Below are positions 6,167-21,210 of a DNA stretch of 32,250 bases, in pieces. Made by a program: the position numbers and the translations under genes. The stretch is taken from positions 1-32,250 of the forward strand of contig CAMWBA010000015.1 in NCBI GenBank assembly GCA_947172355.1, written 5' to 3'. How positions within the stretch are numbered: position 1 is the stretch's first letter; each line of letters begins with the position of its first letter. This DNA comes from an uncultured Bacillota bacterium (GTDB taxonomy: Bacteria > Bacillota > Clostridia > Oscillospirales > Oscillospiraceae). A model generated the notes under the pieces. That model did not search any database and was not told the DNA's origin. It saw only the letters and a program-made list of their open reading frames with translations.

Positions 6167-7012
6167 TTACAGGGACGCGGCAGAGGCGGATATTTTTTGT
6201 CCCCTGCGTTTTTTGGGCTTGTGCGGCACCTCAGACACCTCGCCGTAGTACAGGGCCGTCAGCATGGTGAGCACGTAGCTTTGAATCAGGGCGTGGAGCA
6301 GGGTGAACAGCACCCCCACAATCACCGGGAGCACAAAACTCAAGCTGACAAAGTAATATACCAGCTCCGTCACCAGCAGGCCGCTGAGCAGCGCACCGAA
6401 GAGACGAAAGCTCATGGAAATAGGTAGGGAGAACTCCTTCAGTGTCTTCCCCACGCCGCCCAGACCGTTGCCGGCAATCCCTCCGGAGAGGATGACCAGA
6501 TAGGACAGACAGCCCATGGCAATGGCTCCATTCACATCCGACAGGGGGGCGGGCAGAGTGACAGGGTGTCCGTGGACGGTAATGGCCTGGAGCCCCAACA
6601 GTTCAAAGAGGGTCCCCACAAAAATATAGGTGCCCACGGAAAAGAGATAGACGCCCAAAAATCCGTGGCGGTGGGGGCTGTTGCTTTTGGCCATGCCGTC
6701 AAACAGGCCCACCCATTCCTCCAGCAGCAGCTGAAATTTTCCGGGAATATATTGGAATCTGGGGATTACAAAGACTCGGACGCAGAGGGCAAAAACCAGT
6801 AAAACTGCCGTCACGGTAAAGGCGGAGATCAGTCCCGGATTGACCGCCTTTCCGCCTAGGAGGCCGATCTGGTTTACGTCGTGAAGCACTGCGTCCCGCA
6901 TGGCCTCCTGCACGCTCTCCAGCCGGCCTGGGGAACCGGTGAGCAGGGCGCCGGCCAACAGCAGCAGGATCGCCAGCAGCCACAGCGCCAAACCCTTTTT
7001 GTGTTGTCTCAT
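6167..7012 (-). CDS. atpB: F1Fo ATP synthase subunit a
   Basis: 281 aa polytopic; 'SLPISMSFRLFGALLSGLLV' and 'LFTLLHALIQSYVLTMLTALYYGE' are subunit-a motifs. Confidence 0.95.
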   Translation of the reverse strand: MRQHKKGLALWLLAILLLLAGALLTGSPGRLESVQEAMRDAVLHDVNQIGLLGGKAVNPGLISAFTVTAVLLVFALCVRVFVIPRFQYIPGKFQLLLEEWVGLFDGMAKSNSPHRHGFLGVYLFSVGTYIFVGTLFELLGLQAITVHGHPVTLPAPLSDVNGAIAMGCLSYLVILSGGIAGNGLGGVGKTLKEFSLPISMSFRLFGALLSGLLVTELVYYFVSLSFVLPVIVGVLFTLLHALIQSYVLTMLTALYYGEVSEVPHKPKKRRGQKISASAASL

Positions 7013-7041
7013 TCCACATGCCTTCTCTCACTTGTTTCCTA

Positions 7042-7198
7042 GGCCTTGCTTGAACCATGGCAATATGACCAGCAGCGAGAGCTTTTCCCCCGGACGAAGC
7101 CGATTTGAGCCAGAATACTGGACATATTTCCAGAAAAACCGGCAAAACGGGCAAAAAGATCCACTGATTGGGCGTGTTGCCAAAATTCAGGCAGGCCC
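7042..7198 (-). repeat. MITE-like ~160-bp interspersed repeat, copy 1
   Basis: Minus strand: GGGCCTGCCTGAATTTTGGCAACACGCCCAATCAGTGGATCTTTTTGCCCG...TGCCATGGTTCAAGCAAGGCC. Shares most of its length with 8390-8558 and 18842-19001; ends are imperfect inverted repeats. Confidence 0.82.
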
Positions 7199-7291
7199 TC
7201 AAGGAGCACGTCCTAATGTCCGGTTTCTTACTGGCCCTGGGACGTTGGTTCCTTCTCTAAAATTGTACTACTGTTGTCAAGAGTGCAAAGG

Positions 7292-7320
7292 AAAAGAAAG
7301 CCCGATTTTTCGGGCTTTCT
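7292..7320 (-). terminator. Rho-independent terminator downstream of the GT2 gene
   Basis: AGAAAGCCCGA-TTTT-TCGGGCTTTCT inverted repeat followed on the minus strand by TTTTCC. Confidence 0.75.
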
Positions 7321-7362: not shown

Positions 7363-8349
7363 TTACATTTTTTCATCAAATTTGACCATTTCTCCTGTCT
7401 CCTCTTTCTCCGCTCCAACCAAGGTGTTCCAGCGCTCTTGAATGCAGATGAGCTGCATCTCAAAATCCTGCCGGTTCTTCTGGTTGATGGTCTCCAGAAT
7501 CAGGCCGGAGAAAAACGCTTGAATGGCCGCAATGGCGGTAAAACCGCAGACAATGAGGGTGGGCTGATTGGGAACCAGGCCCGTCCGAACATAGTGGAGA
7601 AGCACCGGGAGGAAGAACCCTCCGGACAGCAGCATCAAAATCAGGGCCATCATCCCAAAAAAGAGAAAGGGCTTGTAGACACGAAAGAGCCTGCCGATGG
7701 TCCGCAGCACCTTGATCCCATCCGACACCGTGTTCAGCTTGGATTGGCTGCCGGCGGGCCGGTCCCGGTAGTCGATGACCACATTGCTGATTTGCATGTG
7801 TTTGTCGATGGCATGAATGCTCATCTCTGTTTCGATCTCAAAGCCCTTGGACAAAACCGGGAAGCTCTTGACGAACTGGTAACTGAAGGCCCGGTAGCCC
7901 GTCATAATATCCTTGATGCTGCTTTGAAACAAAAGATTGATGCTCCTGCGCACCATGCTGTTGCCAAAGTTGTGGAAGGGGCGTTTATTCTCCTCAAAGT
8001 ATGTGGAGGACAGCCGGTCCCCCACCACCATATCCACCTTCCGCTCCAGCACCTGCCGTACCATCTCGGGGGCGTGCTCTGCGGGATAGGTGTCGTCCCC
8101 GTCCGCCATAATATAGCACTGGGCGTCGATTTCCCGAAACATCCGCCGGATGACGCTGCCCTTCCCCTGCTGATACTCCTGCCGAACCACAGCCCCTGCC
8201 TGGCGGGCCGCATCTCCGGTGCCGTCGCTGGAGTTGTTGTCGTAGACATAGATAACCGCCTCGGGCAATGTCCGCTTGAAATCGGCCACCACCTTGGCAA
8301 TGGTCTGGCACTCGTTGTAGCAGGGAATTAAAACCGCGATTTTATCCAT
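7363..8349 (-). CDS. Glycosyltransferase family 2 (polyprenyl-phosphate glycosyltransferase / DPM1-like) with C-terminal TM segments
   Basis: MDKIAVLIPCYNECQTIAKVVADFKRTLPEAVIYVYDNNSSDGT...ADGDDTYP...VVGDRLSS; ATG at 8349. The track ORF extends upstream through repeat copy 2 and that part is spurious. Confidence 0.9.
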   Translation of the reverse strand: MDKIAVLIPCYNECQTIAKVVADFKRTLPEAVIYVYDNNSSDGTGDAARQAGAVVRQEYQQGKGSVIRRMFREIDAQCYIMADGDDTYPAEHAPEMVRQVLERKVDMVVGDRLSSTYFEENKRPFHNFGNSMVRRSINLLFQSSIKDIMTGYRAFSYQFVKSFPVLSKGFEIETEMSIHAIDKHMQISNVVIDYRDRPAGSQSKLNTVSDGIKVLRTIGRLFRVYKPFLFFGMMALILMLLSGGFFLPVLLHYVRTGLVPNQPTLIVCGFTAIAAIQAFFSGLILETINQKNRQDFEMQLICIQERWNTLVGAEKEETGEMVKFDEKM

Positions 8350-8389: not shown

Positions 8390-8558
8390 GGGCCTGTCTG
8401 AACCTTGGCCGCACGCCCAATCAGCGGATCTTTTCCGCCACACGTTGCCGGTCTTCCGGAAATACATCCAGCATTCCCGCAGCATACTTGGGTCAGATCC
8501 GCTTCGTTTGGCGAACACACTCTCACGGATGGTCATACCGCCATGGTTCCAACACGCT
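8390..8558 (+). repeat. MITE-like ~160-bp interspersed repeat, copy 2
   Basis: GGGCCTGTCTGAACCTTGGCCGCACGCCCAATCAGCGGATCTTTTCCGCCACACGTTGCCGG...CGCCATGGTTCCAACACGCT; homologous to copies 1 and 3. Confidence 0.82.
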
Positions 8559-10178
8559 CTAGTTCAGTCCCAGGCTGAGAATGGACGCGAATTTGTCCAA
8601 ATAGGCGGGGTCACAGTAGGTAAAGTTGTAATCATTGGGGTTGGCCCACAGCAAAAAGCTTTTGAACGCAGTCAGCAGCGCAGCGAGGGAAATGACAAAG
8701 CACCACCGCCTGCGGGATGTCTCCGGGGCGCTCTGGCAGAAAAAGCCAAAGGACAAAAAGCACAGCAGCCCCATCAGCCAGTAGAAATCGGAGCGGTAAC
8801 GCTCCAAAAGCCAGGGAGACATAAGCACCTCTGAAACAGTGATCAGGATGGGCAGGAGAAGCAGGATGGCGATAAAGCTCCGAAACCGCCTCGCTTTCAT
8901 CAAGGCCAGGGTATCCCGCTGCGCCAGGCAGAACAAGGCGAAGATGCACACCGGAAAGTTAATCAGTGCAGAGCTAATCGAGACATAAGGAAACTCCGGC
9001 TTGACTGCGTTGAAGAGCAAAAAGTTGCTCAGCAGACCGTTGACCACTTTGCACAGGTCGAAGCGGGAAAGGAGATTGCCATAGCTGCTCTGGTCCGTCA
9101 CGGTGATCTGATAGCTCTGTCCAAACTCGAAGGGGTTTTCAAAGCGGGCATAATTATAGGCCATCAGGGCGGCCCCCACCACAAGGTAGGGCAGGGCAAC
9201 GGCCGCAATCTGGCCCAGCAGCCTGCGGTCCCATCTCCTCCCTCTGACATAGTGGACCAGCATAGGCACCGCCAGCAGGTTGGCCAGGGCAACGGGAGGC
9301 CGGCATCCAAAGGCCAGCGCCCCCATCAGACTGCCCAGCACGCCCCATAGAGTCGCCCGTGTTTCGCTGGAGCTGTCCCATACTGCCCGGGCAAAAAAAT
9401 ACAGGCTCCACACCTCCATGCAGATGCCGGAGGCGATGGCTGTGCAGTACAGCGCCGGTGTCCCCGCCACATACCACACGCTCATCATGGAGAAGGCGGC
9501 GGACATACTGAGGTATGCCCCCCAGGACAGGGAGGGGAAGAACTTTCGCGCCAGCAGGCGGAACAGGAAAAAAACACCTACAATGAACAGGGCGGTAAAC
9601 ACCTGGGTCCCCTGATAGCTGAGCAGGGCGGTCCCCGTAATTACCCGGAAAGGGAGGAACACCAACAATACTGGCACCACCCCAAAATACATATAGTAGC
9701 GCCCATTATAAAAAGCGTGGTCCCAGTGGACCGACACGTCCAGCTCCACCCGCTTCATGGTGTCATAGGGGTTGTCCATCTCCAGTAGCCTGGGATCGAT
9801 GTCGTCGTAATCCATGTAAATATGGCCATTTAGTAAGGACTCTGCCATCACTTCATACTGATTTCTGTGCTGGGGAAACTCCCCGTTCCAATAGGGGCTG
9901 AGGGACATAGGAAGGATCCACACCAGAACGGTGGCCAAGGCCAGCCCAGCCATAACCAGCATTTCCCTGCGGCCGCAGATCTCCATATCCGTCCGGTTTA
10001 AAACTGCGTTGGGGCGCAGACAATAGACGGCGGCGGCCACTGCCCCCCAAAAGAGAACTCCTAACAGCCTAGCGTCCATAGCAACGGCGCGTCCAGCCCC
10101 ATACGGCATCCAACGCGCCTTCCCTCCTGTCCCAATAATGATGGGCAGCCCTTCCACCCACTTCAGATTATCCCTCAT
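8559..10178 (-). CDS. Polytopic membrane protein, probable GT39/GT-C type glycosyltransferase-like
   Basis: 539 aa with many TM segments; extracytoplasmic loop 'HRNQYEVMAESLLNGHIYMDYDD..LLEMDNPYD...HWDHAFYNGRYYMYFG' resembles GT-C/dolichyl-P sugar transferases. Start uncertain: a possible promoter TTGATA-N17-TACTAT abuts the first ATG, so a later start (MPYGAG.. or MDARLLG..) is possible. Confidence 0.7.
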   Translation of the reverse strand: MRDNLKWVEGLPIIIGTGGKARWMPYGAGRAVAMDARLLGVLFWGAVAAAVYCLRPNAVLNRTDMEICGRREMLVMAGLALATVLVWILPMSLSPYWNGEFPQHRNQYEVMAESLLNGHIYMDYDDIDPRLLEMDNPYDTMKRVELDVSVHWDHAFYNGRYYMYFGVVPVLLVFLPFRVITGTALLSYQGTQVFTALFIVGVFFLFRLLARKFFPSLSWGAYLSMSAAFSMMSVWYVAGTPALYCTAIASGICMEVWSLYFFARAVWDSSSETRATLWGVLGSLMGALAFGCRPPVALANLLAVPMLVHYVRGRRWDRRLLGQIAAVALPYLVVGAALMAYNYARFENPFEFGQSYQITVTDQSSYGNLLSRFDLCKVVNGLLSNFLLFNAVKPEFPYVSISSALINFPVCIFALFCLAQRDTLALMKARRFRSFIAILLLLPILITVSEVLMSPWLLERYRSDFYWLMGLLCFLSFGFFCQSAPETSRRRWCFVISLAALLTAFKSFLLWANPNDYNFTYCDPAYLDKFASILSLGLN

Positions 10179-18841: not shown

Positions 18842-19001
18842 GGACCTGTTTGAACCTGTCAAAACGCCCAATCAGCGGATCTTTTCCGCCATACTTTGCC
18901 GATTTTCCTGAAAATATATCCCGTATTTCCAGGTCAAATCCGCTTCCTCCGGCGGAAAAATCCTTCGCTGCCGGTCCGATTGCCATGGTTCCAACAAGGC
19001 C
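18842..19001 (+). repeat. MITE-like ~160-bp interspersed repeat, copy 3
   Basis: GGACCTGTTTGAACCTGTCAAAACGCCCAATCAGCGGATCTTTTCCGCCATACTTTGCCG...CTTCCTCCGGCGGAAAAATCC...TGCCATGGTTCCAACAAGGCC. Confidence 0.82.
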
Positions 19002-19029: not shown

Positions 19030-21210
19030 ATGATCGTCATTGACCAAGAAAACAACGTATTTACTCTGCATACCCAAAATACCACCTATCAAATGAAAGC
19101 CGACCAGCACCGGGTCCTGCTCCACACCTACTACGGCGCCCGGATTGGCGGCGGCGATCTGTCCTATCTGATCCGCCGCGCCGACCGGGGCTTTTCCCCC
19201 AACCCCAACGAGGTAGGGGACAACCGGGACTATTCTCTGGACACCTTGCCCCAGGAGTATTCTACTTGCGGCGTGGGGGATTTCCGCCTGTCTTCCATTG
19301 AGTTTGAGCCGGAGGACGGCAGCCGTCTGGCCGACCTGCGGTATGTGGGCTATGAGCTGCGTCCCGGCAAATACGCTCTGGAGGGACTGCCCGCCTTTTT
19401 CGGCGGAACGGAGTGGGAAACTCTGGTGGTCTTTCTGGAGGACTCCGCCGCCGGCATGTCCGTGGAGCTTTTTTACGGTGTGCTGGAGGACTGCGACCTG
19501 ATTACCCGGGCGGTTCGGGTGGTCAACAAGGGGGATGGGACCGTCCGCCTGCGCCGGTGCGCCTCCCTTTGTCTGGACTTCCAGCGGGATGATCTGGACT
19601 TTATCACCTTTGACGGCTGCCACACCCTGGAGCGCAACCGAAACCGCTCTCCCCTGCGTCCCGGAGTACAGAGTATAGAGAGCGTTCGGGGCACCTCCAG
19701 CCACCACCACAACCCCTTCGTCATCCTCTGCGATCACCAGGCCAATGAGGACTATGGCCTGTGCTATGGCGCCATGCTGGTATACAGCGGCAACTTCCAG
19801 GCCGCTGCCGAACGCACCCAGCTGGAGAACAACCGTCTGCTCATAGGCGTCAACCCCTACCACTTCTGCTTCGACCTGGCTCCGGGGGAGAGCTTCACCG
19901 CCCCGGAAGCGGCGCTGGTCTGCTCCCCGGCTGGCTTTGGTCCGATGAGCCGGCAGTACCACCGGGCCATCCGGAACCACCTGATTCGCGACCCCTACCA
20001 GGGCAGGCGGAGGCCGGTGCTCATCAACAATTGGGAGGCCACCGAGTTTTCCTTCGACGCCTCCAAGCTGGTGGACATCGCCGCCTCCGCCGCCCCTCTG
20101 GGCATCGAACTGTTTGTCATGGACGACGGCTGGTTTGGTGCCCGTGACACCGACCGGAGCGGTCTGGGCGACTGGACGGTAAACCAGAAAAAGATTCCCG
20201 GCGGTCTGGAATCCCTGGTCCCCAAAATCAAGGAGCTGGGGATGTCCTTTGGGTTATGGATTGAGCCGGAGATGGTCAGCGAAAACAGCGACCTCTTCCG
20301 GGCCCATCCGGACTGGGCTCTGGGCGAGCCCCACCGCCCCCAGACCCGGGGCCGGTGTCAGCTGGTGCTGGATTTCTCCCGCAAGGAGGTCCGGGACCAC
20401 ATCTATACCGCCATCAAAACCATTTTGGACAGCGCTGACATCACCTATGTCAAGTGGGATATGAACCGCAGCCTGTCCGATGTGTGGTCTGCCGCTCTCC
20501 CCGCCCACCGGCAGGGAGAGGTCTTCCACCGCTATGTGCTGGGGGTCTATGATGTATTGGAGCGGCTGCACCAGGACTACCCCGACCTGCTCATTGAGGG
20601 CTGTTCCGGCGGCGGCGGACGCTTTGACGCCGGAATGCTCTATTACACCCCCCAGATCTGGTGCAGCGACAACACCGACGCCATCGACCGCCTGCGCATC
20701 CAATACGGCACCTCCTTCTGCTACCCCGTCTCTTCCATGGGGGCCCATGTCTCCGCCGTCCCCAACGGCCAGACAGGCCGCCGGGTATCCATGGAGACCC
20801 GAGGGGTGGTCGCCATGAGCGGCACCTTTGGCTATGAGATGGACCTGAACCAATGCACCCAGGAGGAGCGGGAGACCATCCGCCGGCAGACGGCCTTTTT
20901 CAAAGAACATTACGACCTGATCCAGCAGGGGGACTACTACCGCCTGACCGATCCCTTCACCGACTCCCTCACCGCCTGGGCGCAGGTGTCCGCCGACCGG
21001 CGGGAGGCATTGATTTCCCTGGTCTCCGGAACGGTCCATGCCGCCGCTCCGTTCCGCGCCCTTCGTCTCAAGGGGCTGGACTCGGCACGCTCCTATCAGA
21101 TTAACGGCGAGGGCAGCTTCCCCGGCGATGTGCTGATGGAGGCGGGCTATCCCCTGCCCCTGTTCTGGGACGACTATTCCTGCATGCAGCTCTACCTCCA
21201 AGCCCTGTAG
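19030..21210 (+). CDS. Alpha-galactosidase, GH36 family
   Basis: 'YVKWDMNRSLSDVWS' nucleophile motif, 'LLIEGCSGGGGRFDAGMLYYTPQIWCSDNTDAIDRLRIQYGTS' acid/base region, 'LINNWEATEFSFD', 'MDDGWFGARDTDRSGLGDW'. Start taken at ATG 19030 (MIVIDQENN); the upstream track extension runs through the repeat. Confidence 0.95.
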   Translation: MIVIDQENNVFTLHTQNTTYQMKADQHRVLLHTYYGARIGGGDLSYLIRRADRGFSPNPNEVGDNRDYSLDTLPQEYSTCGVGDFRLSSIEFEPEDGSRLADLRYVGYELRPGKYALEGLPAFFGGTEWETLVVFLEDSAAGMSVELFYGVLEDCDLITRAVRVVNKGDGTVRLRRCASLCLDFQRDDLDFITFDGCHTLERNRNRSPLRPGVQSIESVRGTSSHHHNPFVILCDHQANEDYGLCYGAMLVYSGNFQAAAERTQLENNRLLIGVNPYHFCFDLAPGESFTAPEAALVCSPAGFGPMSRQYHRAIRNHLIRDPYQGRRRPVLINNWEATEFSFDASKLVDIAASAAPLGIELFVMDDGWFGARDTDRSGLGDWTVNQKKIPGGLESLVPKIKELGMSFGLWIEPEMVSENSDLFRAHPDWALGEPHRPQTRGRCQLVLDFSRKEVRDHIYTAIKTILDSADITYVKWDMNRSLSDVWSAALPAHRQGEVFHRYVLGVYDVLERLHQDYPDLLIEGCSGGGGRFDAGMLYYTPQIWCSDNTDAIDRLRIQYGTSFCYPVSSMGAHVSAVPNGQTGRRVSMETRGVVAMSGTFGYEMDLNQCTQEERETIRRQTAFFKEHYDLIQQGDYYRLTDPFTDSLTAWAQVSADRREALISLVSGTVHAAAPFRALRLKGLDSARSYQINGEGSFPGDVLMEAGYPLPLFWDDYSCMQLYLQAL

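Follow-up and report, generated by a model that had tools for sequence, protein, structure and literature searches.

Three repeat copies and a transposase-bearing partner

The window (the whole 32,250-nucleotide stretch analysed) holds three copies of a short repeat, one of which precedes the atp operon. Copy 1 (7042..7198, 157 bp, minus strand in the CGCCCAATCAG sense), delimited from its sequence, a genome search and a comparison of leaders, reads in the same sense as atpB (6167..7012, minus; PF00119, E 2.5e-20), the first gene of that operon, from whose ATG at 7012 it is separated by 29 bp. Its TA target duplication is intact on the atpB-proximal side (7040..7041) and decayed on the far side (7199..7200), where the minus strand reads GA. 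Copy 2 (8390..8559, 170 bp, plus strand; core-model match on the minus strand at 8409-8540) is flanked by the end of ORF 8559-10178 and by the start of a glycosyltransferase gene (7363-8349), and copy 3 (18842..19001, 160 bp, plus strand; core-model match on the minus strand at 18860-18982) lies upstream of a GH36 gene starting near 19033, its flanking dinucleotides decayed on both sides. A 21-base core, CGCCCAATCAG(C/T)GGATCTTTT, is identical in all three, and the terminal inverted repeats (TIRs), GGCCTGCCTGAA / GGCCTTGCTTGAA, are imperfect. The preliminary description had given three copies of about 160 bp with a common core and imperfect inverted ends, the first ending some 30 bp before atpB in the same sense, and these points all held on measurement. 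At copy 2, the TAG stop of ORF 8559-10178 (minus; window 8559-8561) consists of the TA duplication and the first G of the element, and three further copies in the same genome (L300, L301, L303) likewise end the neighbouring gene at the element boundary; that is, the element inserted into a stop codon and a stop is still present.

The host assembly (3.13 Mb in 275 contigs, 77% complete) carries the repeat in 24 places at E<=0.01 when copy 1 is the query, in 34 when the consensus of a younger sub-family is used (eight of them 98-100% identical) and in 35 by a covariance model, bearing out the expectation of many genomic copies beyond the three. The core pattern, allowing up to 3 mismatches, occurred at 24 sites, and a reversed control pattern at 0; chance is excluded as the origin of the repeat. 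One 69-bp internal-deletion derivative retains both ends of the young sub-family (L110 150-290; G000:C21:27084-27152). Elsewhere, copies stand head to tail with one TA common to both, as if one had entered the other's duplication (L082 at G040:C74, L087, L195 and L225).

TA flanks both sides of 68 of the 92 full-length copies from the host and related genomes. The 157-170 bp elements have no conserved ORF, and the G+C content of the copy 1 core is 0.50. A scan of 64 same-genus genomes for the MITE end sequence continuing into other DNA recovered insertion sequence (IS) elements, 844-849 bp long, that share their 18-bp ends with the MITE. Two 849-bp examples (L127 369-1217 and L122 672-1520) have the ends GGGCTTGTTTGAAAAAT, a TA target and transposase ORFs in two overlapping frames, the first matching PF13340 and the second PF01609, both exceeding the NCBIfam cut-off of NF033580 for IS5-family transposases. 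The frames overlap at a GGGGGGAAAAA run, and we infer that ORFA and ORFB are joined by a programmed frameshift. Between MITE and IS, matches of 14-18 bp are found at the ends and any others are at chance level, which is the pattern that defines a type II MITE, its similarity to the partner IS being confined to the ends (PMC10969869). In one locus (L125) an IS and a MITE directly abut.

An intact transposase or IS ORF was not found in the host genome, at its 77% completeness. Assembly breaks in two of its contigs (C35 and C123) fall immediately inside ends of this type, where the sequence continues like the two IS ends, so this genome probably holds an IS copy lost in assembly. The element gave no match in plasmid and phage records. 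Its identity as a MITE is secure: copy number, inverted ends with TA, an element with those ends that carries a transposase, and the empty atp sites described below all uphold the earlier label of MITE-like, and the autonomous element then suggested as a check exists in the 844-849-bp IS5-family elements of the same genus. Judged by sequence, it is a non-coding type II MITE with 2-bp TA duplications and the ends of an IS5-type partner. An IS5-family transposase (TA duplication, ORFA + ORFB) would recognise the terminal ~18 bp and mobilise the MITE in trans, the transposition step being deduced from these shared ends.

The insertion ahead of atpB

A protein search located atpB in 28 same-genus genomes, and 27 leaders were compared. 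By BLAST the repeat occupies 1 of the 27, that of its own genome, and the covariance model gave no match at any of the other 26 same-genus atpB loci; the empty sites in related strains that had been proposed as a check are thus present, none of these 26 loci carrying a copy. In the nearest relatives (L137, L138 and L139) the leader is contiguous and reads by eye as an empty site, and the Shine-Dalgarno region is the same as the relatives' (AGGAAATGAGCGAGAGAAGGCATGTGGAATG in L138, AGGAAACAAGTGAGAGAAGGCATGTGGAATG here). Such empty leaders would follow either from insertion in this genome or from loss in the others. Upstream of the insertion (7201..7292, minus) the comparison of the 27 leaders places predicted atp leader sequence with promoter-like boxes (TTGACA, TACAAT) common to the relatives. 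The spacing from TTGACA to TATAAT/TACAAT is only 7 bases here (~7262-7292, minus) and in L137, L138, L139, L141 and L142; the same boxes are 16-17 apart in most other relatives.

Because these boxes lie upstream of the insertion, copy 1 is likely to be in the 5' UTR, and of the two possibilities first entertained, that it is part of the 5' UTR or that it carries the atp promoter, the former is likely and the latter unsupported. The insertion sits between the promoter-like boxes and the Shine-Dalgarno sequence and most likely extends the atp leader with a long hairpin. In one fold model with an assumed start site, the mean unpaired value of the Shine-Dalgarno sequence was 0.83 with the element, versus 0.40 with the flanks joined; since it stays open in the model, the effect of copy 1 on atp is probably mild. 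We picture copy 1 as an old insertion whose TA target lay after the promoter region of the operon and before its Shine-Dalgarno sequence; there its hairpin may act as an RNase III target or may stabilise the leader. Correia/NEMIS elements offer an analogy for possible cutting of the atp leader by RNase III (PMC10969869, PMC2229807). The best-supported reading of this site, from the leader comparison, is that of a lineage-specific hairpin insertion. For the atp operon this is the more ordinary outcome, a recent leader change in one lineage and not a conserved regulator.

A folded core across Clostridia

Each element folds as a single hairpin of ~160 nt (fold z -4.6 in copy 1, -5.6 in the young consensus). 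The strand taken first gave almost nothing in RNAalifold (-0.67 kcal/mol), and the other strand was therefore tested. That opposite strand (CGCCCAATCAG-antisense) folded better in 52 of 56 representatives (mean -73.3 vs -57.7 kcal/mol) and in every member (69 of 69) of an independent set taken from a public collection of genomes (-74.9 vs -53.3); under DNA energy parameters the preference held in 70 of 70. In a 29-sequence alignment of the better-folding strand, two-sided pair changes numbered 154 (shuffles: 43.6 +/- 5.8), and the share of paired cells was 85.6%, as opposed to at most 48.7% when slid. Both controls flatter the result somewhat, the shuffles being inflated by relatedness and the structure having been derived from the same sequences; the size of the covariation difference nonetheless makes chance unlikely. 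Among the window copies, the strand advantage is kept in copy 2 (-77.4 vs -59.2) and copy 3 (-67.3 vs -56.1) and lost in copy 1 (-64.9 vs -67.0), as expected of an old, fixed, decaying copy. On the covariance-model strand, which is the family's better-folding one, the hairpin core of copy 1 (7061..7179, plus; model R1, 59.6 bits) is antisense to atp. The apical loop is four or five bases long, and sub-families differ by one-base indels. CAAG facing CGCAG appears as a loop pair at two places in the hairpin, in opposite orientations (alignment A1, columns 36-54 and 72-89); these could be copies of one protein-binding site.

With a 166-base consensus, BLAST found matches in 25 of 99 relatives, all of the same genus, and, at family level, in 31 of 301 genomes, representing 25 of 106 genera. 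The covariance model of the core reached 77 of 391 genomes sampled across the class (50 of 223 genera), which is to be taken as an upper figure because a model dominated by base pairs will also give scores to long palindromes that are unrelated. Most of the 29 covariance-model matches read by eye retain CAAGG, GCAGGAATAC, GTATTTCAAG and AACGCAG; the weaker ones may be unrelated palindromes. The exact apex pattern, sought in a named collection, was found among the matches listed mostly in gut and rumen members of Oscillospiraceae and other Clostridia. One exact apex match outside Clostridia, in a Desulfobacterales MAG (L378), does not have the motifs that normally flank it; it is probably due to chance. 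Rfam gave no family in the window at gathering score and no match to the core in 17 loci scanned by E-value; the sub-threshold matches lay elsewhere than the element or were ascribed to chance. A literature search whose reach included few subscription papers found no such family for Oscillospiraceae or Clostridia.

The core does not always come with the same ends. We count with confidence at least five end types around it (the end finder also gave ill-defined ones), among them GGGCYTGTTTGAA with TA, GGAAGCGCTGAT with TCAA or CTTG, GGCAACACCGCATAAT with TTAA, GGAACCTCTGAATAAATC with TTAG, and TAGAACCTGTATTCACA, besides others. Across these types, element length is nearly constant, at about 159-163 bp in well-defined cases, and in members with different TIRs the core is conserved more than the ends. 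No autonomous element was found with the TIR TAGARSCTGTATTCACA in five genomes; for the TAGGCATAAGAGAGTCGAA ends, three genomes gave only double hairpins of 279-280 bp and remnants. In these double hairpins two cores stand back to back and divergent (L464, L465, L466, L469, L470 and L471, in G425/G457), and short remnants of TAGGCATAAGAGAGTCGAA ends occur elsewhere. The element is part of a family of ~160-bp hairpins, distributed over Clostridia, that retain the core while TIRs and target duplications vary between members.

Proposed selection on the core and comparison with known systems

The presence of the core in many Clostridia with different ends suggests that the core hairpin is itself under selection, and selection on one folded strand of it is well supported as a pattern by covariation and strand polarity, although mutation that is itself strand-biased could account for some of the asymmetry between strands. 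We saw no orientation bias relative to neighbouring genes, called by a simple ORF rule, in 30 copies of the host genome and about 50 others, and therefore infer that selection acts within the element's own life cycle and not via host mRNAs, most likely on a transcribed RNA and less likely on single-stranded DNA. Taken as a whole, an old type II MITE in the atp leader, mobilised by an IS5-family transposase and with a core strand selected in the element's own cycle, is an account in which we have good confidence. A bolder proposal, which we put forward tentatively and consider short of probable, is that the ~120-nt core, absent from Rfam, is a selected and portable nucleic-acid module which, across Clostridia, has acquired the ends of several transposase types, the hairpin strand being conserved and the transposase interchangeable.

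Two other readings would give the sequence a role for the host or a protein product. That the repeat is not mobile and is instead a conserved cis-regulatory RNA, a leader riboregulator of the atp operon, would agree with the place of copy 1 in the leader and its stable hairpin, but the scarcity of the repeat in the leaders of the genus (1 of 27 at atpB), the dozens of copies beside unrelated genes and the TA duplications make this very improbable. Still harder to credit is a short peptide encoded in the core: several copies have, on the better-folding strand, a frame reading EYWMYFKEN... that is open over part of their length, but loop-length changes and one-base indels shift it, leading us to reject it, and pairs change on both sides throughout.

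The polarised hairpin might have been selected as single-stranded DNA and not as RNA, for example through lagging-strand extrusion and recognition by a host or transposition protein; the persistence of the strand preference under DNA energy parameters in 70 of 70 copies, the absence of orientation bias to genes and the sub-families with two divergent hairpins per element all speak for this. DDE transposons, however, cut double-stranded DNA, the ends and target duplications here are of the DDE type, and no single-stranded step appears among our results, so that we hold selection as single-stranded DNA to be doubtful, if worth keeping in mind. The core might also need no function, being the decayed inside of an ancestral transposon whose TIRs diverged along with their transposases and whose pairing is kept by hairpin-templated repair or gene conversion. 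MITEs are commonly regarded as remnants (PMC10969869), and the end types could be diverged descendants; but correction of one arm by the other would give no advantage to G-U pairs on a particular strand, unpaired bases are conserved, length is nearly constant across end types, and it is the core, not the ends, that is better conserved in members with different TIRs. We judge such a functionless origin unlikely, and prefer selection on the folded core strand. MITEs are usually viewed as transposon deletions in which only the ends matter; here the reverse is seen, the ends varying and the middle being conserved, covarying and strand-polarised across many genera. This opens a test of whether selection can act on a non-autonomous element for the folded strand it carries, and whether such an element can switch transposases.

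Compared with the IS5-family element of the same genus, the MITE has the same 18-bp ends (GGGCTTGTTTGAAAAAT) and TA target, whereas the IS is 849 bp long, has transposase ORFs and is without internal similarity to the MITE. Correia/NEMIS elements of Neisseria are about 100-155 bp long, with TA ends and a long hairpin, are often gene-adjacent, and yield transcripts that RNase III can cut (PMC2229807, PMC2649163). Our repeat resembles them in size, TA ends, long hairpin and gene adjacency, making RNase III cutting a plausible model for the atp copy; it belongs to another phylum and has other ends, and the likeness is claimed for form, not sequence. Prokaryotic type II MITEs in general are short, non-coding, multi-copy and intergenic, with TIRs, 5'-TA-3' ends and a target duplication, and their transcripts are predicted to form a long stem-loop (PMC10969869; PMC2229807). 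The present family agrees with them in all the listed traits and in having IS similarity confined to the ends, and differs in a core conserved across genera, with two-sided covariation, strand polarity and several end types at near-constant length.
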